DNA of 64,000 nucleotides from the NCBI GenBank assembly GCA_024741835.1, contig JAENRP010000007.1, forward strand, positions 1 to 64,000. Direction: 5' to 3'. Made by a program: the position numbers and the translations under genes. The notes beneath the pieces were generated by a model, which was given only the letters and a program-made list of their open reading frames with translations, ran no database searches and was not told where the DNA came from. Source of the stretch: Diplocarpon mali. Lineage: Eukaryota > Ascomycota > Leotiomycetes > Helotiales > Drepanopezizaceae. Positions 674-64,000 of the stretch are shown here, one piece after another. The stretch's first letter is position 1, and each line of letters starts with the position of its first letter.

Positions 674-959
674 CCCCTTTAGGGAGACCTTTAAAGGTAC
701 TTGCCAGCAATACATATGATATTATAACCTTTGTTATAATCTATAGTTTCATATGAAAAATCAACCTATAGATATAGGAAATAGAGTAGAGTTTGCTAGC
801 GCGTTCTACTTTAGAGTAGGAAATCCACCCTTTAAAAAAGTCAAAATCAACTCGCAGGCCTGGCCTAAGAGTAAAAAAAAATCACCCCTTAATAGAAGTG
901 TAAAAAAAAATCACCTTATAATAGAGGTGTAAAAAAAATCACCCCTTAATCGAGGTGCA
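674..959 (-). other. Copia-1 3' untranslated region with polypurine tract and A-rich triple repeat
   Basis: On the minus strand the LTR is preceded by CTAAAGGGGTG, a good polypurine tract, and the same motif precedes the 3' LTR of Copia E. Between 870 and 955 there are three tandem copies of a roughly 29-bp unit made of an A run followed by ATCACC and an AGGTG end. One palindromic unit lies just before them at 849-872. There is no coding frame. Confidence 0.6.
849..872. repeat. Palindromic unit (single)
   Basis: A copy of the 24-bp palindrome: left arm ACTCGCAGGCC, right arm GGCCTAAGAGT. It lies near the 3' end of Copia-1, just downstream of the RNase H frame. Confidence 0.8.
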
Positions 960-2660
960 GAACCTTTATATTTAACAATTTGATAAAGGCGGCGTAGTTA
1001 GAGCTATTTAAGCTCTTAGTAAGTCCATCGGCGGCGTTATCTTTAGTATTAGTATACTAGAGATCCAAATGGCCTTTCTAAAGCTTTTGCTAAATATAAT
1101 AGAACTTGATATTAATATGCTTCGTTTGCTAGTAATATTCGGGGTTTTCGATAAGATAAAGGGCTCCTTAGTTATTATAGATCATCTTGACTTTAGTAGC
1201 GTTATTGCTAGTATAGCCTATTTCCTTAAGTACCTAGCGTATCTAAGAGGCCTTTTGTGCAAATTTGCATATAGCGATATACTTTACCTCTATAGATAAG
1301 AGAGCGATAATAGTTTATCGCTTAAAGAAGGCGGTAATTACGCTATTATTAAGGAAGAAGACGGCCCTAGAATAGGAGGCTCTACTTCCTCTATTACTTA
1401 CTTAGTCAGAATTGCAATAGCTATGCAATTTCTAAAGCTTTAGGTTAGTTGTTTTACTTCTAAAGGTAGTATAATAGAATCGCGTTCCTTATAAGTATTG
1501 TAAAACTCGTTTTAAAGCTGCTATATATTATAGTAAAGGGTTAATAAGGAATTTGCTAAGAATAGAGTAATAGTATAGTATATCCTAACGCGTATAGTGC
1601 GCAAGGTACTATAAAGAACTACAGATCTCTTAGTATAGCTTCACTTCCTATAGAGTGGCTTAGTCTTTAAATTTAACTATATGAACTTTACAGCTATTAT
1701 CAAAAGGCGTTAGTACGCTTTTATAATTAGTTATATAAAAATGTTTAAGAACCTTATTAACGTAGGCATTTTAATAAAGTGAGATCGTTCTATTTTATCA
1801 ATCTCTAATTATACGTACTCTTAAGAAGTAGTTAGCCGATTCGCTACTTATAATTTCAAAGAGGTTGCGAAGGTCTCTTTTAAACTTATTATATATATTA
1901 CCCTTCTTTGCTACTATAAGGAAGTCGTTGATATAAGTAATAATAAGAATCTAAAAGGCGCAATTGATATATATGCAATTGTTAGTATTAAAAGGTTAAA
2001 AATCGAGCTTTTGTAGCTTAGACCGTAGCTTTTCTTACTATAGTCGTAGAGATTGCTTTAAGCTATATAAGGCCTTAAGAAGCTTAAGATAGTATTCTTA
2101 AGGTAAAAGAACGACCTTATCTTAAGTATATTTAAGAGGTAACTTAATGTAAATATTAAAGTTAGCTTTTAAGTTAAGGAAAGCTATCTTAATATCGAAC
2201 TGATCTAGCTCAAAGTTGTAAAGAGCTGCAAGCGCAATTGCAATTTTCTAAATAGCAGATTTGCAAACGCTAGCAAAGGTTTAATTGTAATCTCGACCTT
2301 ATTATTATATATAGTCTTATATAACGAATCTGACCTTCTATTAGGAGATTTTCCTATTTTAATCTCTTTTTATTTTAAAGATAAGCCTCGATCTAAGTAT
2401 TCTATTATCTTTAGAGAGTTTTAAGCGTTTTACTACTACTTATATATTCTTATAAGCGAGGGAATTATACTTAGAATTGATCGCAGATCGCCATTTATTA
2501 GCATTAGCATAAGAGAGGGCTTATTCGACTATTTTTAAGTCATTTAGGTATAAAGAGTCGAATAAGGCTATATGGAAGGCGCTTAAATAGGCTTCCTTAT
2601 CATTAGAGTTATTAGCTTTGAATCCAAGAGTAGTAGAGCAAGTAGCTCTCTTTTTAAAAG
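960..2660 (-). pseudogene. Copia-1 reverse transcriptase and RNase H
   Basis: On the minus strand this gives the Copia RT signature LLKALYSLKQS near 2070 (normally LLKALYGLKQSP) and the palm motif YINDFLIVAKKG near 1890-1930. The palm motif corresponds to YVDDF, with the first Asp turned to Asn. After that comes a stretch like the YFLGVRIxRD block near 1800. RNase H follows toward 960. Stops are TAA/TAG in the pattern expected from RIP. The small plus-strand frame at 1069-1299 is the antisense of this and is not a gene. Confidence 0.82.
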
Positions 2661-2745
2661 GCTAAGGGTAAGCCTTGTTCTTTGAACTAAGAGGTCTTCT
2701 TCTCTTTCTTAAAGTTGGAAGCTCAGCTTCTTCTAAGTTAGAATT

Positions 2746-2866
2746 GACTCGCGGTCCTGGCCTAGGAATGAAAGCATTATAAGAGTCAGTATTAACTCGC
2801 GGTCCTAGCCTAGGAGTAGAATTATTATAAGAGTCAGAATTGACTCGCGGTCCTGGACTAGGAGTC
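2746..2866 (-). repeat. Palindromic unit array, 3 units at 48 bp, in frame in Copia-1
   Basis: Units start at 2746, 2794 and 2842, so both spacings are 48 bp (16 codons). On the coding (minus) strand they lie in an open stretch and read TPSPGPRVNS, TPRLGPRVNT and IPRPGPRVNS. The array sits in the low-constraint linker between integrase and RT of the Copia polyprotein. Arms are of type ACTCGCGG and CCTAGGAGT. Confidence 0.9.
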
Positions 2867-2879
2867 AAATCACCCTTTA

Positions 2880-4530
2880 ATTATAGCTCTATAATTAGGC
2901 CGTCTTTATCGAATCGAACATAAGATAATTGAATAATCTTTTCACCTATTTGCGATAGTATATAGATCTGATAAATACTTTTATTATCAAATCCGATAAG
3001 AGTACCTACCTCTACTCTTAAAGTGAGTTTATTACTTTAAGTTCGCTTTTCTTTTTTAATTAGCATATAAATGCGATAGCCTAGTACTTGAAGATACTTG
3101 ATTAAGGGAATATAAAGCTTATTAGGCTTAATATTATCCTAAAAGACCTTATATAAAGTCTTACTACTAAGAATATCAAAGGCGGTAAGATTGGTAATAT
3201 ATATTACTAAAAGAAGGAGGTAAGGCCAAAGAAAGGAAGGGATATTTTAATCAATTATAGCTATTTGCAACTTTTCTATTAGTGTGCGAATTGATCGTTC
3301 CAATCTGCTATCTTATTCTAGTATATATAAAGTAGATTCTTCTAAAATTATACTAAGGTTTTCTATAAGTATTTGCATCTATATAAGAAAGTACTCCTTA
3401 CTTCTATTAGTTCTCTACTGCTTAATTGTGCGATTATACTAAGTTTATAAAAGGCTGATCATCTTCTTATTTGCTTTAAAGGTATTAGATTTATTTATAT
3501 AGGTCTATCCCTACCTAGCTATTATAGCTGCATAAGTGAAGATAGAAGCATATTTATAGCTATTTAAGCTAGTTGGCTTTAGATGAACCATATCGATATA
3601 TAGCTTATTAAGTGCCTTTATAGGTTAAGGGCAAGCTAAACGTTTATTAATATATTAAAGAGGTCTGCCTTTCTCGCAAGGGGTGCAAATTCGCGTCTTC
3701 CTTAATTTTATTTCCTTAATCTGCATATTAGTAATAGTAGATTAGGTCTTTCTGACTATTTATAGGCTAGCGTAGCCTAATCGACGGTATTAGAGCTTAA
3801 TATCAAGAGGTCCATTCTTAATAGCAGCTAGGAGAGTATATCCACTTATATAATTAGAGGAGTTAGTAAAAGGCTATTTCTTATTAATATATATATTATT
3901 ATTAATAGTGCAAATTTCCTTCTTATTAGATAGGAATAGCTTGCTATTTTAATAGAAGCCTTTGATTTTATTAAGTTTACTACTTAAGTATAGGCAGATA
4001 GGTAATTGAGGTATATAAAGAGTATTAATTAACTTAAGAATATACACCTTTCTATTAGATTTAAATGCATTGACTTTGTAAGTACTAATGCCGAGAGGTT
4101 GAATAGATCTATTAACTATACTTAAGGAGGGTAGATTATCTTAAGTAGTATAGGAAGTGAACTTAAAGAGATTATTAGAAACGTGCTTATTAGCACTTAT
4201 ATTATATAGCTAATGATTCTTCAATTTTAATAAGAAGCAGGAGGTAGAAGAACTGACTCCCGGTCCCGGCTTGCGAGTGGAAATCGGTCCTAAAGAGGAA
4301 TCGCCTCTTAATAAGGAATTGACTCCTAGGCCCGGCTTACAAGTGAGAATTAGCCCTAGGGTTAGTAATAGCATAGTATGCTTAAAGAGATCATTATCTG
4401 ATTCTTTATCTTCCTTCTGAGTCTTTCTTAAAGGCTTCTTGCCTTTTAGTAATAATGATAATAATAATAAGGACTTATCGTCCTTGCCTTTAAGGTGACG
4501 GAATATATACTTCTTCTTTAAATCCTTCTC
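2880..4530 (-). pseudogene. Copia-1 protease and integrase
   Basis: Minus strand. The protease region reads SANKHV near 4190 (normally D-S/T-GA-x-x-H), followed by a Copia-like core with LYIPQLP near 4010. Next come a GAG-pre-integrase segment, YRRLGYAS near 3785 (normally WHRRLGHAS), and the zinc-binding CTPCEKGRPL near 3690. The integrase core follows down to about 3250. Catalytic residues are hard to place because of stops. Two palindromic units are embedded at its start. Confidence 0.75.
4255..4344 (-). repeat. Palindromic unit pair, in frame in Copia-1
   Basis: Units start at 4255 and 4321, 66 bp apart (22 codons). The coding-strand reading is CKPGLGV and TRKPGPGV, the same T-x-x-P-G-x-x-V peptide as elsewhere. 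They lie between the gag zinc knuckle and the protease. Confidence 0.82.
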
Positions 4531-5790: not shown

Positions 5791-5808
5791 ATGCGGGGCT
5801 CATAACCT

Positions 5809-5993
5809 ATAGCAATAAGGTTCTCTGATAGTAAACTTAATAGTAAACTAGAAGAGAGGGCATAAAGAAGTATAAGGTGCAAACGACGATATTGAGTATC
5901 TTGTGTCTTAATTCATAAGAGCTCTCTAACTACGAGCTATTTAATAAGGGCTGCCACTAAGTCATATGGCAAGTCATATGACATATCATGTAT
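5809..5993 (-). repeat. Copia-1 5' LTR, part 1
   Basis: The same sequence as 430 onward. It is interrupted at 5993 by Gypsy-2 and continues at 13575. Confidence 0.88.
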
Positions 5994-6128
5994 AAAACGT
6001 AGGGGTGGTAATACCTCAGAAAAGGGGGAAAAGGTTGTTGTATTAGGTATGGTACAGTTGTAGGTTTTATCCCCTTGCACTAGCGCCCACATGCTCTACT
6101 CTAGCCTATTCAGGACTAGCACTCCACA
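5994..6128 (-). repeat. Gypsy-2 3' LTR
   Basis: 135 bp, nearly identical to 13436-13570. The bases just outside it on the internal side (6129-6160) give the minus-strand purine-containing stretch AAGGGGCTC, a possible polypurine tract. Confidence 0.85.
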
Positions 6129-6650
6129 AGCCCTATAACAAGAACGAGAGCCCCTTAAGCTATTGCAAGTTCATATATATGCACCTATTGTACTCCCCTA
6201 TTCCTGCAGATCTATAGAAATATTTGCTTCCTTCTTCTATCGCCTCGTCGGGCTGGCAACCTCAAGCTTCTGGTGTTCTTAGATCTTTGCTTTTAGCTTT
6301 CTTAGCGGGAGCTCTAGGAGTTCCAAACCCTAAGGATTATCCCCCTCCTTTCTTCCTTCTCTTACCTGGTTCTTCTAACCTCTTGAGGCAAGGAGTGAAC
6401 TGATCTCCTAGCTCGCAGGTTCTAGTACACCAGAATACGCCCTTCCTATCCTAACACAAGGTAGGAAGTTCGGAGGTAAAAGGGCTTTAGCTGATCTATA
6501 TAGAAGTGCCTTGCGATATATATACCGCTGATCTGTTCGAGCTAGTAAGACTTCCTATGCTCCCCTCCCTCTTTAATAATGCGAAATAGTCCTCTTTAGG
6601 AAGGCCGAAGTTTCTGGCCCAAGGCCTTTAAGTTATATAGCATTACCATA
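6129..6650 (-). other. Gypsy-2 region between integrase C-terminus and 3' LTR
   Basis: About 520 bp downstream of the recognisable integrase on the minus strand. Short basic stretches are readable, but there is no chromodomain or other motif that I recognise. It may be a decayed C-terminal tail of pol plus 3' UTR. Confidence 0.45.
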
Positions 6651-7600
6651 GAGCTAAGGAGGAAGCTCTTCTCCTTTCCAGTAAACCGCGCGGCGCGCCT
6701 TTTATACAGCTCCTTTCTTCTATACTCTGATAGCGTCCTAACTTTATCTTAAACACCTTCTTGCGTTGCAATATGCTCGAGAATAGCGTCGCTCTATGCT
6801 TTATATAATTGCGAATCAGCTCCCTATAAGGCTTTAGGGAACCCTTGGTCGGTAAGAGTTTAGTGGATTATATGCGCATAGTAAGCAGGGAATAATAAAT
6901 CGATAGAGGCTTTAGGCTAATGCCCTTAATAGATATTGAAAGGGGAGTATCCTAGGAATAAGATCTCCCTAGCGTTCACCTCGAATAGCACTCTTTGCAG
7001 TTTTTCTTCAAATAAGCCCTAAGACTTAGCTATAGCTTATTGGAAGATATCGACTGCCTTCTCTACCATTCCTATACTCTTCTTAAAGGCAGAAGGGGAG
7101 TTAATCTATAAGACTCCCCTCTTCCTAACAAACTGGCGCACCTATTCTTTAAAATGGCTGCTAAGGTTAATATAGAAGCCGATAGGAACGCCCTCGATCT
7201 GGAAAAGCCTTTCTAAGCTCCGAATGATATAAATAGAACTCGGTATAGGGCATAGAAAAGCCTAGATAAAACGAGAAAAGTAATCGATAACTATTAGGAT
7301 ATGCTTATACTCCTCTAGCATACTAGGAAAGGGTCCGCAAAAATCTGCGCCGAGAAGCTCCATAGGCCTAGAGACAACTACACTTAATAGAGGTTATAAT
7401 CTCTAAGCAGGACTATATTTTGCGCACTAAAGGCACCCTAAGATATATAGAGAAACGTCCCTTATTATAAAGGGCCAGTAGACGTTTCTCAGCTTCCTAA
7501 GGGTAGTAGTAGAAGCAAAATGGCCCCCTTTATCGTAGGTAGCGAATAGAGCGTTAGAAATCTATCCCAGAACTAGGCAAGACTTGTATTTTCCTCTCTA
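6651..7600 (-). pseudogene. Gypsy-2 integrase
   Basis: Minus strand. The HHCC zinc domain is visible near 7410-7550: YDKGGHFAS, then LRNVYWP, then CLxCAKY. The core begins MELLGADFCGPF near 7340-7370, with the first catalytic Asp present, and continues with HILIVIDYFSRFI. The block around the second catalytic residue reads FYINLSSHF, so the Asp is not seen there. Basic residues follow toward 6650. Several TAG/TAA codons break it. Confidence 0.85.
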
Positions 7601-8149
7601 GTAGTACTAAAGAGTATTATTCTCCTATTTGTACTTAAGGCCCTTCTGCTAGAGGCTCCTCTTCCCCACTCGGTCCATTCCATTAGGAAATTCCTAGTAT
7701 AGAAGATATCTTATCACCTTATTATACTAAGGGTATTATAGAAAGGCCTGTAGAGCTTCCTATATCTTAGCATCTGCTATTAGGTCGGCATTTGCTAGCA
7801 GATATATAACATTAGGAGTTATAGCCAGTCTAGCTGGGATTCTTAAGAAGGGAGATATAGGTTGGAGGCCGACCTTTAACTCTACTCCTGCAACTTAGCA
7901 GAGAGCTGCCATAAACAATATATCTTCTTCTCTATCTCCTACGTATCCTAGCACCTTTAAAGGGTAGAGTATCTCTTATACAGCCTTTAGCTTTAAGCGT
8001 TCGATTTCTATTAGTAGGTTGGCGATGTCTTTGAGTAGCTGTTTATAGCCCTCTTTCCTATCTTTCCAGATCCAAATACTATTCCGATCTGCCGCTGCTT
8101 ATATATATCTATATTTCGAGTAGTCTCCCTTATCACAATTGTCTCTTAG

Positions 8150-13570: not shown

Positions 13571-13574
13571 GTAT

Positions 13575-15343: not shown

Positions 15344-15367
15344 TACTCTTAGGCCTAGCCTATAAGT
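15344..15367. repeat. Palindromic unit in element A gag
   Basis: Arms ACTCTTAGGCC and GGCC-like TATAAGT. Element C has the same unit at the same place (54061-54084), so it predates the split of these two copies. Here the gag frame reads it as ILLLGLAYK rather than as the usual T-x-x-P-G-x-R-V. Confidence 0.78.
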
Positions 15368-16352: not shown

Positions 16353-16376
16353 CACTTATAAGCCTAACTTAGGAAT
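16353..16376. repeat. Palindromic unit in element A gag (degenerate)
   Basis: ACTTATAAGCC followed by a diverged right arm; read in the gag frame as TYKPNLGIR. The orthologous copy in element C at 62258-62281 is closer to consensus. Confidence 0.55.
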
Positions 16377-18268: not shown

Positions 18269-18292
18269 AACTCGCGGTCCTAGACTAGGAGT
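18269..18292. repeat. Palindromic unit in element A
   Basis: ACTCGCGGTCC / right arm CTAGGAGT. Close to consensus, with little mutation. Confidence 0.85.
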
Positions 18293-18430
18293 CAAATTTG
18301 GAATTTTGAAAAATAGTATAATCGGCGTTTTATTAAAATAATAATTAAGAAAAAAGAAAAATAAGGCAAAGAAGAGGGTTCGTTTTATAAATTTCGATAA
18401 TTTATTAATTATTTTGAAAAATCTAAAAAC

Positions 18431-18454
18431 CACTTATAGGCTAGACCCGCAAGT
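18431..18454. repeat. Palindromic unit in element A
   Basis: Arms ACTTATAGGC and CCCGCAAGT. Confidence 0.78.
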
Positions 18455-20397: not shown

Positions 20398-20421
20398 GAC
20401 TCGCGAGCCCGGCCCGCGAGT
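20398..20421. repeat. Palindromic unit at the RNase H-integrase junction of element A
   Basis: The most symmetrical copy in the window: ACTCGCGAGCC and GGCCCGCGAGT. It is translated in the pol frame as RLASPAREL, a different frame from most other coding copies. Confidence 0.9.
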
Positions 20422-28710: not shown

Positions 28711-28715
28711 ATAAT

Positions 28716-29200
28716 CTTATCCTAGTTTATAATATTATAAGAAGCATTAATATATTAGCAGATACTAAACTTAATTATTGATAGCTTAGCCTATTTAAAG
28801 TTAAATTTAAGTAAAAAGAAAAAGGATACTATTCTCTTTAAGAACTTAATAGAGTTGATATTAAAGGAACCTTCGCAGCTAACCGACTAAAGCGCTTTTA
28901 CTAATGCGATTAAACCTTATTCCTTTTAAAAGATGAATTAGAAATTAATATAACCTTCGAATCTTCTATAAGAACCGATAGTCATATAAGCAATTTTAAA
29001 CCCTTAGATAAAGACTAAGATTTTTCCAACTTAACCTATAAGCTAGTCCTATGAGTAAAGAATATTAAAATACCTAACTAATCGCAACCTTAAGTTATTA
29101 TTCTTAAAATATCCGAAGAACGCAGACTAGAATACTAAACGATTTCCTAGCCTATCAATTGTCCTACCTTCCTCTAATCCTTATTTTTATATTTTCGGCA
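28716..29200 (+). pseudogene. Element A integrase C-terminus
   Basis: Resumes the element A pol frame after E1. FKVKFK near 28795, GYYSL near 28820 and KGTFAANRLKRF near 28860-28895 match the SH3-like C-terminal block of Gypsy integrases, in which a Leu/Val-Asp-Gly-x-x-Gly segment is followed by NGxRLKPY. The frame peters out by about 29.2 kb. Confidence 0.75.
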
Positions 29201-30296: not shown

Positions 30297-30320
30297 GACT
30301 TGCGGTCCTAGACTAAGAGT
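30297..30320. repeat. Palindromic unit in X1
   Basis: ACTTGCGGTCC / CTAAGAGT, read in the X1 frame as LTCGPRLRV at codon offset 845 nt from the ATG. X2 has a unit at the equivalent offset, 857. Confidence 0.85.
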
Positions 30321-31682: not shown

Positions 31683-31706
31683 CACTTACAGTCTTAGCCC
31701 GCGAGT
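31683..31706. repeat. Palindromic unit in X1
   Basis: ACTTACAGTCT / CCCGCGAGT, read as FTYSLSPRVN. The equivalent position in X2 (35634) also has a unit. Confidence 0.82.
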
Positions 31707-32567: not shown

Positions 32568-32591
32568 AACTCGCGAGCCTAGCCTGCGAGT
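32568..32591. repeat. Palindromic unit in X1
   Basis: ACTCGCGAGCC / GCCTGCGAGT, read as LTREPSLRVR near the C-terminus. X2 has one at 36456, again near its C-terminus. Confidence 0.86.
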
Positions 32592-34217: not shown

Positions 34218-34241
34218 GACTTATAGGCCTGGCTTATAAGT
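34218..34241. repeat. Palindromic unit in X2
   Basis: ACTTATAGGCC / GGCTTATAAGT, read as LTYRPGLxV. Position equivalent to the unit at 30297 in X1. Confidence 0.85.
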
Positions 34242-34403
34242 GGAATTAGCATATAAGGAGAATATCCTTAAGCCAAAGGTACTTATAATACTAGGAACTC
34301 AAGTAGCTAACCTGCCTAACTACTATTCTTTTAACTTAAACAAATTTGAATTACTATCCTTAGAAATGCCTCGAATACCTTAAATACTAATAGTAAAGAA
34401 AAT

Positions 34404-34427
34404 AACTCGCGGGCCTGGCCTATAGGT
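34404..34427. repeat. Palindromic unit in X2
   Basis: ACTCGCGGGCC / GGCCTATAGGT, read as ITRGPGLxV, 186 bp (62 codons) after the previous unit. X1 has no counterpart that I can see. Confidence 0.87.
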
Positions 34428-35633: not shown

Positions 35634-35657
35634 GACTCTTAAGCCTGGCTCGCGAGT
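35634..35657. repeat. Palindromic unit in X2
   Basis: ACTCTTAAGCC / GGCTCGCGAGT, read as RLTLKPGSRVN. Counterpart at 31683 in X1. Confidence 0.87.
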
Positions 35658-36455: not shown

Positions 36456-36479
36456 AACTCCTAGGCCTAGCCCGCAACT
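36456..36479. repeat. Palindromic unit in X2
   Basis: ACTCCTAGGCC / AGCCCGCAACT, read as TTPRPSPQLV near the C-terminus. Confidence 0.8.
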
Positions 36480-36804: not shown

Positions 36805-36912
36805 CATCTAGGTTAATACTATTTTTAATTGTTTTTACAACTTTATAGCTTATTTATTTATTTTACTAGTTTCGTTTTCTGACTCTTAGGCCCGGCCTAT
36901 AGGTAAAAAGCG
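36805..36912 (+). other. Element A 3' sequence up to the gap, with palindromic unit
   Basis: About 100 bp of AT-rich sequence after X2. A palindromic unit at 36881-36904 (ACTCTTAGGCC / GGCCTATAGGT) ends eight bases before the run of Ns. Confidence 0.7.
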
Positions 36913-39903: not shown

Positions 39904-40329
39904 AACTCTTAGGCTAGACTTATAAGTAGATTCCTTTAAGGAAAGTGCACTCTTTACCCTAATACAATTAAGTAAGGATAAGGAGAATAGATGGACTCTT
40001 AAGTTAGGATTATAAGTAAAATTCGCGAAAATGACTCTTAAGCTAAGACTATAAGTAGATTATAAGGTATCTTTAAAGGTGACTCTTAAGCTAGGATCAT
40101 AAGTGAATTTAGTAGAAATGACTCTTAAGCTAGGACTATAAGTAGATTTTATAATTTCGCTAATAATGACTCTTAGGCTAGGATCGCAAGTGAAATTCGC
40201 AGAAACGACTCTTAAGCTAGGATTGTAAGTAGATCTTGCCATTTCTAGGAAATCGACTCTTAAGCTAAGACCGCGAGTAGATCTTGCGGTTTTATTAAAA
40301 ACGACTTTTAAGCTAGGCTTATAATTGGA
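39904..40329 (+). repeat. Palindromic unit array, 9 units, in frame in Copia D
   Basis: Units start at 39904, 39994, 40033, 40081, 40120, 40168, 40207, 40255 and 40303. The spacings are 90, 39, 48, 39, 48, 39, 48 and 48 bp, all multiples of three, with a 39+48 (87-bp) higher-order repeat. In the pol frame each unit reads as T-L-K/R-L-G/R-x-Q/R/stop-V, the RIP-altered form of T-P-R-P-G-P-R-V. The array sits between the protease and the GAG-pre-integrase domain. The minus-strand open frame 40060-40338 is its antisense shadow. Confidence 0.93.
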
Positions 40330-43436: not shown

Positions 43437-43584
43437 GACTCCTAGGCCCGCCTTGCGAATTAGGTTATATAGTTTTATAAAGGAAAGTTTTTAAATCGAC
43501 TCTTAGGCCTAGACCGCGAGTTAAGTTATATAGTCTTATAAAGGAACGCTTTTAGAAATTTGACTTCTAGTCCTACTTTATAAG
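43437..43584 (+). repeat. Palindromic units in a 61-63-bp tandem repeat, end of Copia D pol
   Basis: Units start at 43437, 43498 and 43561. Flanking bases (GTTATATAG then TTATAAAGGAA) are duplicated with the first two units, so the repeat here is palindrome plus about 38 bp. The 61-bp spacing between the first two is not a multiple of three, unlike the coding arrays. The second unit reads STLRPRPRV. Confidence 0.85.
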
Positions 43585-43723
43585 TAAGATTAGTGATTTT
43601 AATAAAGGTTGCTATTAATTGATTATTTTTAATTTAAAAAGATACTTAAGAGTTAGATTAGCGTAAAAGGATAGTTATTATTTTCCTAACTATAGGTTAA
43701 TTAAAGTAAGGTCTAAGTAAGGG
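43585..43723 (+). other. Copia D 3' untranslated region
   Basis: Short AT-rich stretch ending in GTCTAAGTAAGGG, a mutated polypurine tract, directly before the 3' LTR. Confidence 0.55.
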
Positions 43724-44823: not shown

Positions 44824-44854
44824 GAGAAAAAATAATAAAAACAGAAAAACAATA

Positions 44855-53383: not shown

Positions 53384-54124
53384 TTAGTGATCTATGCAAG
53401 GACCGATTTCTTAAGATTTCCGTCTTTATATGACCTTATCGATCTCTTAGTTCGCAGATAAGAGACTAGCCTTTTGAAAAATATATCTTCGAAATACTTA
53501 TAGCATTTTAATTAATTTTAAAAAACCTTATCCTTAATCGCTTAGTTACTTAGAATTGTCGATTTTCGTTTAGCAATTATTAATAACTTTAGAATTTCCC
53601 TTTTCGGCTCCATTTTGAAAAACCCCTATTTTTTCTCCTTAACTCTAAGATTCTCGGAATTTTCGGCTTTCTAATATAAAAAGTTTGATAAACCCTATAA
53701 TAGCAATCTCTAATAGCAGTAGTTTTAAGTACTTAAGTAATACTAAGCGCAAACTCTAATTAGAAGTACTTCCTTAGAATCTTTAGAAATCCGAATTTGA
53801 TAATTCAGCCGCCTTAGCTTAATAGAACTTTAAAAATTGCCTTAGAATCGTTTCCAAAGACCCTTTTATTCTAAGGACCAATAGGAATTAGCCTAAAGGC
53901 TAAGAAGAATTTTAGATATAAACCTTATTTTAGAAATTGGTCTTTAATTAAGTAAACCTTATCTTATTGCAATTAATTGCAATACTCCTATTAGCTGTTT
54001 AGCACTCACTTAGAATCTTTTAACAAACTTGGATTAAACTTTTAGCAGAATTCGGAATTCTACTCCTAAGCCTAGCTTATAAGTAGAAGGATAAAAAGAT
54101 ATTTTTAAATAACTTAAGACTACT
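53384..54124 (+). pseudogene. Element C leader and gag start
   Basis: Aligns with 14673-15405 of A. The gag frame is readable from about 53.65 kb and is cut at 54124 by chromovirus F. Confidence 0.75.
54061..54084. repeat. Palindromic unit in element C gag
   Basis: ACTCCTAAGCC / AGCTTATAAGT; orthologous to 15344-15367. Confidence 0.8.
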
Positions 54125-54374
54125 TGTTACGGCCGCATCATATGCACGGTTATATCATATATCGGTCAGGTGCACAAAGTCAGGTGCACGCTAAGGTAGC
54201 AAGGTGGCTGGATCACGTGCACGCTAGTAAAGCACCTGTACTTATTCTAAAGGAGCTCTACTAGAGACTCTCTCTCCTTTATCTTTTCTTCTCTATTATA
54301 TAGCGTACCTCTTAAGGTAATACAGTCAGCGTTCGATTCTCGCTCTACTATACGCTCTAGAGCCAGTTGTAATA
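54125..54374 (+). repeat. Chromovirus F 5' LTR
   Basis: 250 bp. It contains two copies of TCAGGTGCAC at 54167-54194, a stretch TAGCAAGGTGGC near 54197 that resembles a Pol III box A, and GCGTTCGATTCTC near 54331 that resembles a box B. The same motifs are kept in the 3' LTR. Confidence 0.92.
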
Positions 54375-55400
54375 TAAGAAAAGATCAACTCAACCTCTGC
54401 TAAGAAGCTTAATATCTACCACCTTTAGAATCGTCACTTCGAACTGCCTTAAGTAACTCAATCTCTCAATCTTAATACTTCTACTATAAACTGCCCTAAG
54501 CAACTCATATATAGCGCTTAGATCTTATTAATCTAGTTTTTAAAGAAAGCTGAATAATAACCTTCGAATAATATAAGATCAGCTTGTTTTTTCGACCCTT
54601 TATGCATTCTATTTTACAAACGGAAATTCACCTTTAATTTCAATTCGAAAAAAAATTATTCACTATGCCCTTATTTCACTAGCATAGGCTATTGCCTAAA
54701 GTAGTATAATAACTTTTCTCTTCTTAACTCTCTTCTTCCCTTATAAATACTCTATAATATATCGACTTATACTTATCGATAACTCTCCTTTTACTCTTTA
54801 AAGCTCCTTACTCCTTCCTTCCCTTAAATACAACTCGACTCTTTAAAAAACCCTCCTTGCGAATAAGTCATCGACCTTCTCTATACTCCCTATCGACCTA
54901 TACTTATCGATAACTCTTCTTATAACTCTTCGAAGCTCTTTACCTCTTTAAAGTTCCTTACTCCTTCCTTCGAAACACTCGGGTACGAAACTAGGGGATT
55001 TATACCTATATATATATATAGAGACTTAGTTAGCTTTAATAGGTTATACTATACTATTAAAGATTAGGTCAACTTTAATAAAATAATAAGCTTTAGATCC
55101 TTGGACCCTACTTCCCTAGATTTGCACTATACCTTTAAGCAACCTTATTATAACTCCTAATTAGTAAAGAGACGTAATCTTAAAGTAAAACCTTCTTTCT
55201 TAAGATCTATAAACCTATAATACCTTAATATATACTTTATTAAAAGGCTTTAAGAATATATATAGCTCTGCCTATACTAATCTTCCCCCTTTTAAATAGG
55301 TTACTATTTAGCATTAGGTCCCTTTAGACTAAACTAAATAATATAAAGAGAGTTAGTACTTATAACCTTTAATCTTATACTACTTAGGAGAAGTAAAAGG
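54375..55400 (+). other. Chromovirus F leader
   Basis: About 1 kb between the LTR and recognisable gag. It has a pyrimidine-rich middle and several copies of TATCGATAACTCTCCTTTT-like sequence (near 54775 and 54900). The primer-binding site after 54374 is not assignable. Confidence 0.5.
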
Positions 55401-56770
55401 TTAACCATACTACCTCTAGGCCTTATTGCCACTAGTTCTCTAGGCCTTACTGCCAACCCTACTCTTAAAGATATTCCCCTTCCTAAGCCCACTTAAGAAG
55501 CTCCTTCCCTTAGTATAGATTTCACTCTTAGTCCTAGCTTATAAGTGGATTCTCGAAATACCCTATTACTATTGATTGAAGTTAAGGAAGAAGATATACT
55601 CTCCTCGACGACGTCTACCCTTACTATATCGGCCCCTCTCTTTTCAATTGCCTAGCAGGCCGAAATTGCGAACCTTATTAGCGCTGCTATAGCCGCTGCT
55701 TTCTAAAATAATACTACCGCCCCTTTTTTCTTAAGTGCTAGCCCTTGGAATACTCGGTCTCTTACTGCTGACTTACTGCCTCCTTTAAACTACTACCTCC
55801 TAATCATCTAACCTTTAGTCTTAGCTATTAACCCTTATCAAATCAAGTACTTTTAAACCCATTTTAGCAACTATTAAAGCGAAATTACCTATAACGCTTA
55901 AAAGATAGCTATAAAGGTATTTATTTAAAAGTACTTAAGTAACTTTACTTTAAGAGAGGACTAGATCACTGCCTACTTTAAATATATAATAGGTAAAGCT
56001 TAAAACTTAATCTTATAATATATAAATCCTATCTTTATTAATAAGTTTATATATATTACTAATATCCTTAGGGTCTTAAATCAAAGGTTCTTTAATTATA
56101 ACTATATTCAGTCCGCTAAGCTTAAATATAGCAAGCTAACTATAGGTTTATTATTATATAATAAGTTCTAATCTAAGTTCGTTACCCTTATTATAGCTAA
56201 TAAGATCGATTAGTCTTACTAGTTTAATAACATTTGTAAAAAGGTCTCCTTAGCCTTAAAGAATAACCTTTAAGTAAAGAAGTATAAAATAAATAATAAT
56301 TATATTACTCTAGATGAGTTCTTAGCTATTGCAAACTATAAGGCCTATAATATTAAGTAAGAAGAGGCCTATAACGCTTAACAAGTCGCCCTTATTATTG
56401 CGTTTTCCCCTTCAAAGGACCGCGTCCTTAGCATACTAAAAAGGGAGTTATAGAGACCTATAGCTATAGCTACCTCCCTAGCTCCTTATACTCATTCCCC
56501 CTTGCCAGCGGCCTATTAAGAAAGGTCTACTAGCCCAAAGCCATTATCTAGTCTCTATTATAACTGCAAAGCCCTTAGTTATTATATAATAAATTGCCTT
56601 AAGTTAAAGAAGTAGGGCGAGTTTATAATAGCTAAAGTTAAGATGGAAAACGACCTACTATTAGGAAACTGCTAAGCTATAGTAAAGACTCCTACTATAG
56701 TATAGATTATAATTTATAAAAAGACTTGGATTTTGATTCTTACCTATTAATAGGCGGCCGCTAGTTCTTA
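55401..56770 (+). pseudogene. Chromovirus F gag
   Basis: The frame with codons at 3n is readable from about 55.4 kb. It includes one palindromic unit (55523) near its start, a capsid-like stretch with REDWITAYFKYIIG near 55950-55990, and a zinc knuckle near 56550-56590: YYNCKALSYYIINC, with the first Cys and the His read as Tyr. Downstream the pol frame is at 3n+2, so a -1 change occurs between about 56.64 and 56.77 kb. Confidence 0.8.
55523..55546. repeat. Palindromic unit in chromovirus F gag
   Basis: ACTCTTAGTCC / AGCTTATAAGT, read as FTLSPSLxVDS. Confidence 0.82.
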
Positions 56771-57300
56771 GTTCTTATAGAATTAGCTTAAAATAGATTA
56801 TTTATTAAAACAGTTACCTATATTAATAATAGAGCTAATATTTTCAGTATTATTAAGATGTCTTTAGTATACTAGCTCTTTTAAAGACTTAAGGTAAAGT
56901 TTATTAAATTGCCTAAACTGATTACCCCTATTAGCTATAATAGCCTTAAGGGAGAAACCATTCGATTCGCTATCTTACTTACCTTTATAATCAATAGGCG
57001 ATAAATAAACTTCCCTTTCTTAATTATAAGCTTAAGAGCAACCGACGTTTTAATTAGTAGGAAGTTCCTAGAGCACTATAACCTTAAATAGTCCTATAAA
57101 AGGGGAAAAAATAGTATCTCTTAGCCTAAGGATATGCCTATTATCCTTTACTTTAATTAACGCGTACTAATTGATCTCTTATAGCTAATAAAACCTTTAA
57201 TAGCTTAATAAGATATCAATTGTCGAGTAGCTATAATAGATGCTAAGGATAAAGACCTAAGAATGGCCTAAGCCTAGCTCTCAGCGCTAGCAAGCAATAA
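56771..57300 (+). pseudogene. Chromovirus F protease
   Basis: Frame 3n+2. The catalytic loop reads YINNRANIF near 56822-56850, where D-S/T-GA is expected, so the Asp is Asn. The later block LRATDVLISRKFLEHYNL near 57030-57085 matches the Gypsy protease end (I-L-G-x-x-W/F-L-x-x-x-x). Confidence 0.78.
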
Positions 57301-57309
57301 CTCGAATTC

Positions 57310-57468
57310 CACTCCCAGTCCTAGCTTATAAGTGAAATCTGCGAACTCGAATCCTACTCCTAGTCCTAGCCCGCGAGTGAAATCTGCGAACTCGAATCCT
57401 ACTCCTAATCCTAGCTTGCGAGTGAAAACTGCAAACTTGAATTCTACTCTTAGTCTTAGCCTATAAGT
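57310..57468 (+). repeat. Palindromic unit array, 4 units at 45 bp, in frame in chromovirus F
   Basis: ACT of each unit at 57311, 57356, 57401 and 57446; three spacings of exactly 45 bp (15 codons). The pol frame reads STPSPSLxVKSANSN, then PTPSPSPRVKSANSN, then PTPNPSLRVKTANLN, then STLSLSLxV. It lies between protease and RT. Confidence 0.93.
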
Positions 57469-57479
57469 GGCCTCTTATA

Positions 57480-59260
57480 AACTTAAGGATAGTAGTTTCT
57501 TTAAAGACTTGAAAAGAGATCTAAACTATATAAAGAAGGCCTTATTAAGAGTACTAGACCCCTTGCTCCCTCTTTTAGTAAAAAGAAATACTCTTTTAAA
57601 AATAGCTTATTAGATTAGCTTAATCTTAGCTTTAGTAATTAGCGCCCTTTACTACTGCTTTATAACTAAGGCAAAGCGAGCTATACAAACTTAGGAACCA
57701 GCGCTTAAAGAGTTTATATTCGTAAGCTTAATTTATAATCTAAACCAAGAGATCAATCGCTAAGAATCGGCTAGGCAAGCTAAAATTAGCTCCCTTAGCC
57801 TTAGTTTAGCGCTGCAAGCTAAGTATAAGAGCAATAATAAGCTAATAGACTAGAAGCTCCTGCCTTAATACGCTGAGTTTAAGAATGTCTTTAATTGCTA
57901 GGCCTTTGATTAGCTACTAAAACCTAGACTAAAGGTAGATTATAAAATTGAGCTAATAGGCGAGAATAACTTAATAATTAAGCCCTTCTGCCGCCTTACT
58001 AACAAATAGCTCTTAAAGGTTAAGAGCTATATTCTTAAGAACTTATATAAAGGATTTATTAAAGCTTTAAGTTCCCCTTAGGTAGCCCTAATCCTCTTTA
58101 TTAAAAAAGCTAATAGCTCCTTATATTTATACGTTAATTACTAGAAACTGAACGCCTTAATAAAGAAAGACCCCTACCTGATTCCCCTTATTAATAAGAT
58201 AATAGTATGCATATCGAAAGCTTGTGTTTTTATAAAAATCGATATATAATAAGCCTTCTATTATATCCGCATATCAGCTAATGCTAAGGACCTAACTATA
58301 TTCCGCACGCGTTATAGGACTTATAAATATAAGGTTTTGCTATTCAGGCTAATAAATGGGCCTATTACCTTTTAAAGGTTTATTAATAATATTCTCTTTA
58401 ACCACTTTAACGATTTCTGCTCTACTTACTTAAATGATATTCTAATCTACTTAGAAAACTCCCTTAACTATAAGATTTATATTAAAAAGATCTTAGGAAT
58501 TCTCTAATACTATAGCCTTTAAGTAGATATTAAGAAAAGCGAGTTCGGGGTTACTAAGACTAGGTTCTTAGGGTTTATTATTAGAGTTTATAGAATTGAG
58601 GTAGACCCTAATAAGGTCTTAGTCATTTAGGAGTGGAAATACGCTAAAAACGTATATAGTATATAGAGCTTCCTAGGGTTTTGTAACTTTTACCAAATAT
58701 TTATTAAAGGCTATAGTTGTATTTGCCGACCTTTAATAGCTCTTATAAGAAACGTTCCTTTTAATTTTAATACTACTTATAAAGAAGCTTAGGAAGCTCT
58801 GCGCTTAAGCTTTTAAACGACCTCGATTTTATACTACTATTACCTTTAGAAGTAGATAAGGCTTAAGACCGACGCCTCTGATAGCGTAGTCGCTAGCGTA
58901 CTCTCTTAACTCTAGGAAGACGATAACTACTACTTAATCGGGTACTTTTTAAAGATAATGAATAACGCTGAGCTGAATTACCCTATTTATAATAAGGAGC
59001 TCTTAGCGATTTTTAGATCGCTCTACTAGTATAAGGCAAAGCTACTTAGGGCCTAGAAAATAGTATATATATATATAAATCATAAAGCCCTTAAGTACTT
59101 TATAATAACTAAGGACTTAATAGCCTAGTAGGCTCGCTAGGCGGAGTTCTTCACTAACTTCAACTTCCTTATTATATATTAAATAGGTACGATAAATATA
59201 CTAGCTAATATACTCTTATATTAAGACTAGGAGCTGACCCCTCTTAAGGCCAGGAAATGA
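57480..59260 (+). pseudogene. Chromovirus F reverse transcriptase and RNase H
   Basis: Frame 3n+2. SSLYLYVNYxKLNALIKKDPYLIPL near 58120-58190 is the RT entry block. The catalytic box is YLNDILIY near 58429 (YLDDILIY with the first Asp as Asn). Then SFLGFCNFY near 58670, RNase H LKTDASDSVVASVLS near 58862-58905 (Asp present), and NKELLAIFRSL near 58990. The RNase H end reads EFFTNFNFLIIY near 59145-59180. Confidence 0.88.
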
Positions 59261-59331
59261 GCTTTACGCTATTAGTAGCTCTTACCTAATGATAAGCTCT
59301 CTATAGAAGTACTTACTACTAAAGGCGATTC

Positions 59332-59400
59332 TACTCCTAGGCCTAGCCTACGAGTGACTTTAGCGCAGATCGATTCCACTCTTAGGCCTAGCTTATAAGT
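59332..59400 (+). repeat. Palindromic unit pair, 45 bp apart, in frame in chromovirus F
   Basis: ACT at 59333 and 59378. Read as DSTPRPSLRVTLAQI and DSTLRPSLxVTTMPI. They lie between RNase H and integrase, a second linker site in the same polyprotein. Confidence 0.9.
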
Positions 59401-59419
59401 GACAACTATGCCAATCGCG

Positions 59420-60780
59420 CTAATAGAGGCACTTGCCAACCTAACGTCTAAGGTCGAGTATGATATAGCGAACTACTATATTATTAATAAGGTTATTTAA
59501 GCTAATAAGACCTCCTTTAAGCTATAGAAGTTCTAAGATAAGGCGTAGAGCCATAGCCTCGACTATGAACTTAGCTAAGGTAAACTCTTCTTTTAAGGTA
59601 GACTTATTATACTATCCTAACCTCCCGAACTGCAAATAGCCCTAATTCGTTATATATATAAGTAACCTTATATTGCATATATTAGAATTGGGAAAATAAG
59701 ACTTCTAATAAGAAGAAAATACTATTGGAAAAGCCTTAGCAGCGACGTTAGCACTTATATTTAGAACTATCGTTATTCGAGAATGAAAGCTTATTATAAT
59801 AAGACCCTCGGTTTCCTGCAACCCTTGCTAATTCTTAAATGAGCTTACTAACACTTGATAATAGATTTTACAAAGCTCTTGCTTAATAAACTCGGTTATA
59901 ATTTTGCCTTTATAATTATTGATAGGTTATTAAAGAAGGCAGTTTCGGTTCTATACTATAATTCAGTCGATATAAAAGGCCTTATAGAGTTGTTTTTAAT
60001 TTACTAGATACGCTATTTTAGTATACTTGACTCGATTCTATTAAATAGAGGCGCCTAATTCGTCTCTACCTTTTAGAAAGAGCTCTATTAAATACTAGGT
60101 ATAAAGGTTAAGCTAACTATAGCCTATAACCTTAATATCGATAGCTAAACTAAGATTATGAACTAGTACTTAAAATAATGCCTTAGACTGTTCTACTTAT
60201 ACTATTAAGATAATTAGAGTCGTCTCTTCCCTTTAATAGATATTACCCAATTGACCTTACTATATAAATCGCTAAGGCAAATTTCCCTTTTCTAAGTGCT
60301 AAACGGCTATGAAGCTCGCTCCTTTTGGAATTTAATTAACCTAGAGCCTTTATAGATAGCAACTAAGAGAGTAAATTGTAAAACAGCGCTTTATATAGCT
60401 ATTAGAGCTTAAAAAGTAGTCCAATTCGCTTAATCATCTCTTTAAGTATAATAGGCTAAAATAAAACGGCTTGCAAACCTCTACCGATAGCCAGTTGATT
60501 AGACTATAGGAAATGATATACTAATTAGTATTAAAAACTAGAAGCTCGATCGGCTGAGCTAGAAGCTCTCTGATAAGTGGTATAGCCTAGTAAAAGTATT
60601 AGAAAAGCTAGGAGAAAGCTAGAAGCTATAATTGCCCGATTTGCTCTATTCGATCTACCCTATTTTCCACTCGCACTTACTGTATAAATATATTCCCAAC
60701 CCCTTGCTAGGACAAGTTCGAGAACCTCCTGCCCTAATTAAAGTGCTATTAGAATAGAAGGAGTAGGAGATAGAAGCAAT
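59420..60780 (+). pseudogene. Chromovirus F integrase
   Basis: Zinc domain remnants near 59690-59790 (RRKYYWKSLSSDVSTYI, with the Cys pair lost); core with LIIDFTKLLL near 59860 (first Asp), FAFIIIDRLLKKA near 59910, LLNRGAxFVSTF near 60045-60080 where the second Asp reads Asn, and LNIDS followed by Asn-Gln near 60135. The C-terminal GPY/F region has EARSFWNL near 60310, then KLSDKWYSLVKVLEKLGE near 60575. Confidence 0.83.
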
Positions 60781-61057
60781 AATTGGATCTTGTATTTGAG
60801 CTTAAAAGCTCGAATATCAGATTAAGTGGAAAGGAGCTAATGAAGACCTTAAATAGTACCTATGCTCTAATGCTATAATAGCGTTGTATACTATTTAAGA
60901 TTTCTATTTAAAAAACGTTTAAGCTAAAGGGCTACTAAGGGCACTATTAAGCTGGCTTATATTATATAATAATGGAATTGACGATTATAAGGACTTAAAG
61001 GATAATACGCCTATAGATACAACTGCATAGGCGCAGTTTTTCAAAAGGGGGAGGTAG
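60781..61057 (+). pseudogene. Chromovirus F chromodomain and polypurine tract
   Basis: LEYQIKWKGANEDLK at about 60813-60860 is a chromodomain core (Y-x-I-K-W-K-G) with a stop at a likely Trp or Glu position, then the pol end. AAAAGGGGGAGGTAG at 61043-61057 is the polypurine tract, immediately before the 3' LTR. Confidence 0.86.
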
Positions 61058-61307
61058 TATTACAGCCGTATCATATATATAGTTATATCATATATCAGTT
61101 AGGTGTATAAAGTCAGGTGCATACTAAGGTAGCAAGGTGGCTGGATCATATGCACGCTAGTAAAGCACCTGTACTTATTTTAAAGGAGCTCTACTAAAGA
61201 CTCTCTCTCCTTTATCTTTTCTTCTCTATTACATAGCGTACCTTTTGAGGTAATACAGTCAGCGTTCGATTCTCGCCCCATTGTACGCTCCAGAGCCAGT
61301 CGTAATA
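61058..61307 (+). repeat. Chromovirus F 3' LTR
   Basis: 250 bp, paired with 54125-54374; begins TATTACAG (TGTTACGG with transitions). Confidence 0.93.
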
Positions 61308-61312
61308 CTACT

Positions 61313-64000
61313 ATTTACTTTTTTAATATTAATATTAGAAAATACTAAAAATAATAATAATTTTAAACTTTTTACTAACCCTTTATTTGAATCTTTTCAA
61401 ACTCGTCTTAGTTACTTTAAGATTGACTCGGATTCTGAATATTCTTTAAGCCCTTTTGAATTTCGAAATACTCCTCTTAGCTATTAATCTTATAATATTA
61501 AAGCTTCCCCTTTGCCCTTTATAGATTCTATTAACTTAGACAGTTAGTATAAAACGATAATAGCTGCATTTAGGGCTATTATTAGTCACTTTCCCTTTCC
61601 TAGTTCCCCTAGTGCTCCTTACTTCATAGGTACTAATATTACTAATTTCCTTAAGTAATATAAGGAAACTTATTACAATTTTAGCATTATATAAGAGGAT
61701 ATGATTTCTCGACTTTCTTACTACTATAATTATATAAGTAAGGATATTATTAAGTCCCTCCTTAAATGGAAAACTTATAGTTTATAAGAACTCCTTATTA
61801 AGGCCCTTAAATCTGAATTCTGCGAATTTAATAGATAGTAGATTTGCAATACCCTGGCTTTCTTAAAGGAATTTATTTTAATCACTTATACTTTTAAGGA
61901 ACTTAAGAACTACTATCAGACTTTTACTTATATATTAAATACCTTAATTAGTTAGAAAATACTTAATAAAGTTAAAAGAGGCCGCCTTTTCTTATTCGGA
62001 TTACCTATTAGCCTTTGAAATAAGATCATTAAGCATTTTAGGATTAATAAGTAAGACCTTATAACCTTTGCTTTATTTGAGGAATTCTTAGCCTTTGCTT
62101 TGAAATCAGATCTTAGTAAGAGAACTATTAATGCTATAGAGTAGGAAAAAGCCCTTACTCCTTCTTATATTAAAGACCTTAAGAGCCTGGTCTAAGAATA
62201 CTCGAAAGCTTTAGAAGTTATAAAGGAGGTAAAGAAGAACCTAGTAGTTATACCTTTTACTTATAGGCCTAACTTAAGAGTAAGATCTAACCTTAGAATT
62301 AAGGAACTTAAGACCTAATTTGCAAAACTCTGAATCTAAAGCTTAGAAACTAGAATTAATAATCTCTTATAAGAAAAATAGTATATTCTTTAATTTGGTA
62401 ATAGATAAAACTCGGCTACTATAAGCCAACCTAGTAGTTCTTATTACTAGACTCCTGCTTTTTATCATTCGGAATAACCAGCTAATATAAGAATGCAATA
62501 GCTGGTTAAAGAAGGAGGAATTGATCCTAATTAGCACTTTGCTAATATTAATGTTATAAGGTATTAAGGAAACGGTAATAGAAGATAGCTAATCTGCAAC
62601 TTTTGCAATAATAAAGAACCTAACTGCGCTTTATATAAGTACTATAACAATTGTCCTCTTTTCCTTTATTTTATTAATATTAGGGTTATGCATATTAATA
62701 AGTATAGGATACTTTGTATTAAAGATCTTAGGCCAGACGCTATTTTTATTAAAAAATATTAGAATCGTTTATAGCTATAGACTATTTGAATAATAATATA
62801 TAATATAAAGTGGGATAAGGATTTGGCCGAATAGAAGCGTATTATTGAAATCAACTCTAAGGTCCTAACTTATATATATATAGGTTTAGCTAGCAATCTA
62901 CCTAAGGGAGTGCTTACTAATTAAACTTTAAACTAGACTGCTATTAAAGTTAGAGGTATCTTTATTTTAAGGTAGGTTAATAATAATATATCTACTAATA
63001 TTAATGCTACTTCTATATTTAAAAACCCTTAGAATACTTAGTATCCTTTTAGATCTACTACTCCTTTAATATTAATAAAACTAGCTAAAGTCTAGAAATT
63101 AATATGTATAACTTAAGAATCTTAATATAAAGTCCAAACGCTAAAAGATACTTAATAATCTAGAACTATAGTAAATAAGGATAAAGCTAATATAGTAGAC
63201 GAATTAATCAAAGATATAATAGATAAAGATAGCTTTAAGCTTAAAGATTAAGAAGTCGAAGTTATTATATAGACCCTTGACCTTAAGTGAAAGAGATAGA
63301 TATTAAAATAGGAGAAATTCGTTAATAAATACGCTAGTTTAACTATAATAGAGAAAGCTATAGAAAATATTATAGCTTAGTAAATTAACCTTATATTTAA
63401 AGACCTATTTGGTTTGATTAGACGCTTTAATAAAGTGCTAGGAAAGCATATCCTAGTTGCTTTTAAAGATTTGAATAATAATAAGGAAATAGAAATTATA
63501 ATATAAAAGAACTTTAAGAAGCACTTAGCCTTAATCAAATGTCTTTAGATTATAGAAGATAAAGGAACTTAAAGGTATTATAATATTATAGTAATAGCTT
63601 TAATATCTTAGAATATTAATTGAAATTATTTAATAGTTATAATAAAAAGCCTTATTATTATTTATTTTATAAAAGAATTAGTTAAAGTAAAGGCTTTGAT
63701 CGATTATAGTTTAAAAGTTAATATAATAATTAGGAAAGTGGCAGAAATAGCTCGATTAATAATTGTTAGCAATCAACTTCTTATTTATTTAACTATTTTT
63801 AAATTAAAATACAATTTTAATAAATAGGTGAAAAACGTAAAGGTTAAAGTTAGAGGAATCGTTAATTATATTGACTTTCTAATAATAGAGAATTCTTTAA
63901 ATAATATTCTTTTAGGAATGCCCTTTATTTTAAAATCTTAGCTAATATTTAACTATCCTAAAGATAGTCTTATAAAAGCTAGTCTTTAAAATATAGATTA
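61313..64000 (+). pseudogene. Element C gag and protease (to the window end)
   Basis: Resumes gag after F, aligning with 15406-18100 of A. Open at first, with LFESFQTRLSYFKIDSDSE near 61380-61440, INDFLK-like ITNFLK near 61640, the Cys block ICNFCNN near 62590 (one Cys more than A keeps), and the protease near 63680-63920, including ILLGMPF near 63910 where A has ILLKMPF. The short open stretch at 61281-61487 is its start fused to the end of the F LTR, not a separate gene. Confidence 0.82.
62258..62281. repeat. Palindromic unit in element C gag
   Basis: ACTTATAGGCC / AACTTAAGAGT; orthologous to 16353 in A and closer to consensus. Confidence 0.65.

Follow-up and report, generated by a model that had tools for sequence, protein, structure and literature searches.

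Protein-coding palindromes are known from bacteria, an archaeon and animal mitochondria, and PARCELs also from unicellular eukaryotes. Rickettsia palindromic elements (RPEs) and similar coding palindromes of Wolbachia and Methanocaldococcus are in-frame inserts in unstructured parts of unrelated proteins (PMC2996958, PMC6649704), and a PARCEL is a 25-aa palindromic amphipathic repeat coded by 75 nt (PMC2996958). Here we looked at a coding palindrome of the fungus Diplocarpon mali, in a stretch of 64,000 nucleotides (assembly GCA_024741835.1, contig JAENRP010000007.1, positions 1 to 64,000; hereafter the window) for which a preliminary description had reported about 40 copies of an imperfect palindrome spread through Copia and Gypsy polyproteins. 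The palindromic unit is real and unusual. On balance, we lean towards regarding this palindrome of about 35 bp as a selfish or neutral micro-element that has spread rarely between the long terminal repeat (LTR) retroelements of one fungal lineage; our description of the unit is strong and our account of its mechanism moderate. Among open-licence papers, no description was found of such a coding palindrome in fungal nuclear retroelements. The main texts of PMC5628827 (on Diplocarpon rosae) and PMC11527701 make no use of the word palindrom-, and the palindrome of a fungal Copia paper is a different one, lying beside the LTR (PMC5445492).

The unit resembles RPEs in that palindromic DNA is read as an in-frame insert in unrelated proteins, a likeness already proposed in the preliminary description: it is read in phase 0, as defined below, at 8 of the 9 sites with frame evidence and in phase 1 at the ninth, and the frame is open in the least damaged copies. 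It differs in being nuclear, fungal, about 35 bp long and often tandem, in having been seen in no context but retroelements and other repeats, and in owing its amplification to its hosts; RPEs are longer. As far as sampled, no insertion in assorted host housekeeping genes was seen (66 of 66 places in repeat sites, 0 copies in 40 kb of gene-rich DNA). PARCELs are likewise tandem coding palindromes and are tied to mobile elements in some taxa, whereas the fungal unit spans 12 codons and is Pro/Gly-rich, neither its spacing nor its peptide type being that of a 25-residue amphipathic repeat of 75 nt. Miniature inverted-repeat transposable elements (MITEs) have terminal inverted repeats with a target-site duplication; the fungal unit is an inverted repeat over its entire length, direct repeats in its flanks do not clearly exceed expectation, and no empty site was found. 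Yeast mitochondrial GC clusters (PMC4478555) and Volvox palindromes (PMC2670323) are likewise short, GC-rich or hairpin-forming, dispersed and deemed selfish, but they are mainly organellar and non-coding as described, with similar repeats also reported in nuclear DNA of Volvox (PMC2670323). Putative target duplications accompany the yeast clusters (PMC4478555) and are not clearly seen for the fungal unit, whose examined copies belong to LTR retroelements and other repeats on large contigs of nuclear type and not to mitochondrial DNA. Finally, the inverted repeats of nematomorph mitochondria also sit inside coding sequence, but they are perfect, have arms of up to 142 bp and are apparently actively kept (PMC6649704), while the fungal units are short, dispersed and decaying.

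In the window, a symmetric weight matrix extended by 6 flanking bases detected 41 copies between 850 and 62281, the lowest scoring 19.7 against a threshold of 4.6 derived from shuffles; the number given beforehand and the arms as described are thus borne out. A core-only matrix at a cut-off of 12 (top score in a 1 Mb Markov shuffle, 9.1) kept 34 of the window copies. The whole-genome search with a degenerate pattern that had been proposed was made in the assembly of 49,369,952 bases in 676 contigs, and returned matches in several element families: 3,082 forward and 2,995 reverse with at most 2 mismatches, against 8 and 7 for a reversed-pattern control. The GC-rich, undamaged form gave 164 forward and 150 reverse matches with at most 1 mismatch (control, 0 and 0). 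Since a palindromic place can be counted on both strands, adding the two strand figures may considerably overstate the number of places. Contigs C1-C5 (2.49 Mb) contained 3 zero-mismatch matches of the pattern searched with at most 2 mismatches, all inside 4.2 kb. GC-rich patterns had 0 matches in prokaryote and viral contig collections, to which fungi do not belong. One protein search for relatives gave a distant reverse-transcriptase (RT) fragment that does not cover the unit and another gave none; two Diplocarpon coronariae proteins match a Gypsy B fragment at 78 and 77 percent. D. coronariae assemblies measure 50.3-54.5 Mb, about one third of it repeats (PMC11527701).

The window itself is AT-rich, CpA/TpG-depleted DNA of the type left by repeat-induced point mutation (RIP), crowded with LTR retroelements. 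This strong depletion is what would favour a low-complexity or RIP artefact, in which GC-rich islands arise by chance, an idea to which we give practically no credence: the unit cannot be a product of RIP, which removes GC; it is intact in 174- and 271-aa frames of the little-damaged element L035 (GC 0.48); and the control counts stated above are far below those of the unit.

The unit consists of a 23-bp core and of weaker palindromic shoulders that extend the conserved part to about 35 bp, beyond the 22-24 bp first reported. Its coding-strand consensus is RATTY-N-ACTC[C/G]CGG[T/G]CC-N-GG[A/C]CCGCGAGT-N-RAWTY. Across 22 site representatives, shoulder base -1 was a pyrimidine and base +25 a purine in 22/22, and conservation dropped off about 5-6 bp beyond the core. 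Read in phase 0, it encodes [DN][FSL]-TPGPGPRV-[KND][SF], and TRGPGPGV on the reverse strand; the other phases encode LPGRARE or SRAGPAS. Most of the larger clusters are mismatched at core positions 5/19, with a fixed C.C (or G.G), in a palindrome that is otherwise paired; a fully paired 5/19 subtype occurs at sites b and c of repeat F5, at the Gypsy B site at 20399 and at some others. RNA hairpin folds of five 40-nt examples ranged from -8.5 to -19.4 kcal/mol, with z from -0.70 (a RIP-damaged copy) to -3.54. Selection for arm pairing was considered and rejected: a change from T:A to G:C at positions 9/15 in the gag family looked compensatory at first, but mixed states are common. In 223 copies, which are related by descent and were not turned to a common strand, pairing was 0.43 at 9/15 and 0.43 at 6/18 (0.50 expected for each), 0.63 at 7/17 (0.52 expected) and 0.79 at 8/16 (0.70 expected). 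Arm pairing thus shows no consistent sign of maintenance.

To group the copies by site, the unit was masked and the flanks were clustered, after removal of copies with identical flanks and of the overlapping loci L007 and L008. The 239 non-redundant copies fell into 18 clusters; splitting one lumped cluster and counting the weak 16354/62259 site as well brings the total to about 20 sites. They are spread over four LTR-retroelement families and unclassified repeats, mostly in polyprotein linkers, so that the occurrence in different Copia and Gypsy families, with unrelated flanks, and the linker positions between domains reported beforehand hold, the latter at most sites. Elements were delimited by flanking direct repeats taken as LTRs, their Copia or Gypsy class was assigned by inspection, and so were domains except for the named Pfam matches. 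The sites are in gag and in the protease-RT and RNase H-integrase linkers of Gypsy A; at two positions in the 5' and gag region, in the same two linkers and in the 3' part of Gypsy B; in the gag-protease and integrase-RT linkers and near the 3' LTR of Copia-1; and, as arrays, after the protease region and near the right LTR of Copia D. An SH3-like domain (PF25597) lies upstream of the Copia-1 integrase-RT units in the relative L037 (E 1.1e-5, 25.6 bits, below the Pfam cut-off of 27), Copia D has a Pol_BBD match (E 0.0022, below cut-off), and the related fragment P0001 carries RVT_1. No convincing match came from Pfam searches with pieces of F5, F7 and Gypsy B. Ordinary recombination or gene conversion between elements, with the palindrome as passenger, would draw on the fact that the families co-occur and nest in one another. 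We hold it to be improbable: conservation drops off 5-6 bp beyond the core and the flanks that define the clusters are unrelated, which would leave the palindrome itself as the exchanged tract, and homologous exchange usually needs longer identity.

Next to this spread over hosts stands the small number of sites. All 66 sampled genome places, among them 38 of the 57 distinct places that the GC-rich pattern matched without mismatch, were in recurrent repeat sites, 52 assigned by clustering and 14 by coordinate overlap with clustered loci; 34 of them came with the loci of the two genome pattern searches, and 20 and 12 from later samples. No single-copy host-gene insertion was present among these 66 places, which are not a complete scan. 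Four stretches of gene-rich DNA (40 kb, GC 0.45-0.57, no RIP signature) contained 0 copies, with a best score of 4.3 against the cut-off of 12. Because the sampled places are recurrent sites and gene-rich copies are lacking, the thousands of copies are mostly the product of host-element amplification of about 20 founding insertions, apparently only in repeats. The presence of the unit was then followed at two sites genome-wide. At the Gypsy A gag site, it was present in 30/30 fetched loci, one of them the query's own place (42 matches listed; 40 of 172 candidates scored). For the RNase H-integrase site of Gypsy B, the alignment spans of 150/150 scored matches (of 259 candidates) cross the unit without length change, and the two D. 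coronariae proteins are also filled there. The proposed check for empty sites therefore yielded none, and of the idea of a mobile or template-switch-spread element, the shared unit proved real, while the copies came down to about 20 sites multiplied by their hosts, the mobility of the unit being what we infer from them.

These data bear on a DNA-level mobile palindrome, RPE- or MITE-like, that inserts anywhere and whose copies outside retroelements were purged or unsampled. In-frame linker insertions in both orientations resemble RPEs (PMC2996958), and one phase-1 site and copies near 3' ends would fit as well. We consider it unlikely, yet the likeliest of the alternatives, given that every sampled place was a recurrent repeat site and that no clear target duplication was seen. 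RIP acts on repeats, so that single-copy insertions should remain intact and easy to find with the GC-rich pattern.

We then compared the DNA sequence with the peptide. Third codon positions 3, 6, 18 and 21 each keep one purine/pyrimidine class in 22/22 sites, and across the same sites third positions 9 and 15 are limited to T or G and to A or C, respectively. Since the third base is free in codons for Thr, Pro, Gly, Arg and Val, the peptide alone would not require fixed silent classes. In a peptide-first scan of 346,854 bases, some of them in loci that overlap, 224 distinct peptides matched TPGPGPRV or TRGPGPGV at 6/8 residues or more; the DNA unit accounts for 223 of them, and the only one without it is in a gene-rich control stretch. 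The silent conservation is therefore not a by-product of DNA-based searching. Together with the phase-1 site and the copies near 3' ends, it indicates that a DNA or RNA sequence was copied, and peptide convergence as sole cause, the peptide tag put forward in the preliminary description, is not supported, given the conserved silent positions and the lack of a recoded peptide in the scanned retroelement sequence. A broader version, in which TPGPGPRV is selected for retroelement function and the DNA likeness is secondary, would account for phase 0 at 8/9 sites and for the gag family, where the transversions in the unit, few as they are, all fall at third codon positions. We regard it as hardly probable, because third positions are fixed or two-state across the 22 sites, no recoded version was found in the scanned retroelement sequence, the phase-1 Gypsy B site reads LAVLARE, the Copia D 3' units are spaced by non-multiples of 3, and two elements of the window, the Copia-like one and another bounded by LTRs, are without the unit.

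The common reading frame noted at first was borne out, in both orientations, as a strong rule but not an absolute one, the Gypsy B site at 20399 being in phase 1. Among 9 sites with frame evidence apart from the unit, 8 are in phase 0 (P 0.00097 for phase 0, 0.0029 for any phase). This evidence comes from open frames in Gypsy A (gag, 174 aa; protease-RT, 271 aa; RNase H-integrase, 130 aa) and at the Copia-1 gag-protease site (175 aa), from the frame that the Copia-1 integrase-RT units share with the SH3-like domain, from the protease ORF (open reading frame) of Copia D, with which 6/6 units in L005 and 9/9 in the window are in frame, and from Gypsy B, where the protease-RT units are in the frame of the following RT-like ORF and, more weakly, 16354 is in that of the following ORF. 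Copy by copy, 97 of 165 had a longest open frame of at least 60 aa and 79 of these 97, related by descent, were in phase 0; 15 of the 18 others belong to one gag site and are mostly RIP-damaged, whereas its least damaged copy, L039, is in phase 0, and the phase of the gag site was set by alignment to that copy. The GC-rich form is stop-free in all phases, so stops at insertion time do not explain the bias, which may reflect tolerance. On the coding strand, the orientation is reversed at the Copia-1 gag-protease site and in the first Gypsy B protease-RT unit, and opposite to this at the Gypsy A sites, in Copia-1 integrase-RT and in Copia D. Spacing was divisible by 3 in 91/93 distinct adjacent pairs at most 100 bp apart, the two exceptions (61 and 65 bp) being both at the Copia D 3' site. 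The commonest array spacings were 39, 45, 48 and 54 bp, and none of the 93 was 75. Near full-length spans of the Gypsy A protease-RT stretch, in 142 scored candidates, were about 765-855 bp and included 765, 810 and 855 as well as intermediates; the 45-bp steps suggest changes in array copy number.

The reading that we lean towards is a coding palindrome of the RPE kind that is restricted to retroelements, was probably spread when reverse transcriptase switched templates, and is tolerated in linkers as a Pro/Gly-rich insert. The copying step would be a switch of template at the hairpin or self-complementary sequence during cDNA synthesis, donor and acceptor being co-packaged RNAs of different elements, and such switching between retroelement RNAs would limit spread to reverse-transcribed sequence. 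In linkers, the unit may survive because phase 0 would add a short Pro/Gly-rich, probably disordered segment in either orientation. In-frame tandem duplication would later produce the arrays, followed by multiplication with the host element and RIP decay. A further, quite unlikely proposal is that the unit is a self-complementary RNA tag, whose pairing across the RNAs of different families would lead to mixed dimers, co-packaging, strand transfer and exchange between families.

Several points weigh against the spread of a retroelement-confined unit by template switching. The switching step is one that we infer, and no empty site or polymorphic insertion was found at the two sites followed genome-wide, so that the insertion boundaries and the movement are putative. 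There was no clear target duplication among flanking direct repeats of 22 sites; the strongest of 40 length-by-offset combinations, 4-mers in the AT shoulders, occurred at 4/22 sites against 0.5 expected, an excess that self-complementary words (AATT) can cause. The 66 places were taken in contig order and not at random, some being neighbours in one array, and the gene-rich sample is small, about 2.4 copies being expected in its 40 kb under even spread. One flank cluster joins 15345/54062 with 59333/59378, sites of two different elements that we counted separately, F5 and F7 are without a convincing Pfam match as retroelements, and the copy number in the window varies with the matrix cut-off (41 with flanks included, 39, and 34 at cut-off 12). 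As to phase, the test takes sites within one element as independent, the seven sites with the strongest evidence give 6/7 in phase 0 (P 0.0069, or 0.021 for any phase), and of the 18 copies of the gag cluster whose longest open frame reaches 60 aa or more, 12 have it in phase 2 and only 3 each in phases 1 and 0. The 64-bp pair 43499/43563, also no multiple of 3, is below the score cut-off and outside the 93-pair count. Finally, transversions per cell in the gag family were 0.025 in the unit against 0.017 and 0.005 in the flanks, the unit being no better conserved.

The coordinates of the elements and units are collected in the table. Two elements of the window are free of the unit: the LTR-bounded element 5992-13570, and a Copia-like element in both of its copies (21515-28708 and 45260-52451). 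The latter copies are 7.2 kb each and 89.8 percent identical, their class being assigned by inspection with no Pfam match. The first of them interrupts a Gypsy B copy and separates its units 20399 and 29034; in L029, the equivalents of these two units are 1,435 bp apart. Gypsy A is nested in the second Gypsy B copy (junctions 54118-54127 and 61307-61311), and as the uninterrupted equivalent is at 15401-15406, the nesting order is readable. In F5 (30298-32591; relatives L012, L026 and L034), the three units share one frame and there are open frames on both strands.

Table. Host elements and palindromic units in the 64,000-nucleotide window.
Feature	Positions	Strand	Element and site
Copia-1	LTRs 429-616 / 5807-5994		
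Gypsy A	LTRs 54127-54374 / 61060-61307		
Gypsy B	from 14422; second copy 53129-64000		second copy interrupted by Gypsy A
Copia D	LTRs 37787-37979 / 43726-43918		
F5, F7	30-37 kb of window		unclassified repeats
unit	850..872	-	Copia-1 near 3' LTR; frame unlike the window's other five Copia-1 units
array of 3 units (2747, 2795, 2843; spacing 48)	2747..2865	-	Copia-1 integrase-RT linker, phase 0
units 4256, 4322	4256..4344	-	Copia-1 gag-protease linker, phase 0, opposite unit orientation
unit	15345..15367	+	Gypsy B 5' part; frame unproven
unit	54062..54084	+	second Gypsy B copy, equivalent of 15345
unit	16354..16376	+	Gypsy B gag region, frame of ORF 16663-16866
unit	62259..62281	+	second Gypsy B copy, equivalent of 16354
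units 18270, 18432	18270..18454	+	Gypsy B, upstream of and in frame with RT-like ORF (19020), phase 0
unit	20399..20421	+	Gypsy B RNase H-integrase linker (by inspection), phase 1, LAVLARE in L029
unit	29034..29056	+	Gypsy B 3' part past nested element
unit	30298..30320	.	unclassified repeat F5, site a
unit	31684..31706	.	F5 site b, fully paired subtype
unit	32569..32591	.	F5 site c, fully paired subtype, frame as sites a and b
units 34219, 34405	34219..34427	.	unclassified repeat(s) F7
unit	35635..35657	.	F7
unit	36457..36479	.	F7, inside 88-aa open frame, phase 0
unit	36882..36904	.	F7, beside N run 36913-37003
array of 9 units (39905, 39995, 40034, 40082, 40121, 40169, 40208, 40256, 40304; spacing mostly 39/48)	39905..40326	+	Copia D after protease region, all nine in protease frame
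units 43438, 43499, 43563 (spacing 61 and 64)	43438..43585	+	Copia D near right LTR, probably non-coding
unit	55524..55546	+	Gypsy A gag, phase 0 by alignment to L035 family
array of 4 units (57311, 57356, 57401, 57446; spacing 45)	57311..57468	+	Gypsy A protease-RT linker, phase 0
units 59333, 59378	59333..59400	+	Gypsy A RNase H-integrase linker

If a coding palindrome is nuclear and restricted to elements that are reverse-transcribed, the unknown spreading mechanism of such palindromes would be linked to reverse transcription, and the case would show a route by which retroelement linkers gain new peptide segments. Were the less likely RNA tag true, the unit would parasitize reverse transcription and live in no other place than the RNA of retroelements, and it would sit within coding sequence since phase 0 does no harm on either strand. 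For repeat annotation, the unit calls for caution, as thousands of short repeats may trace to about 20 founding insertions.

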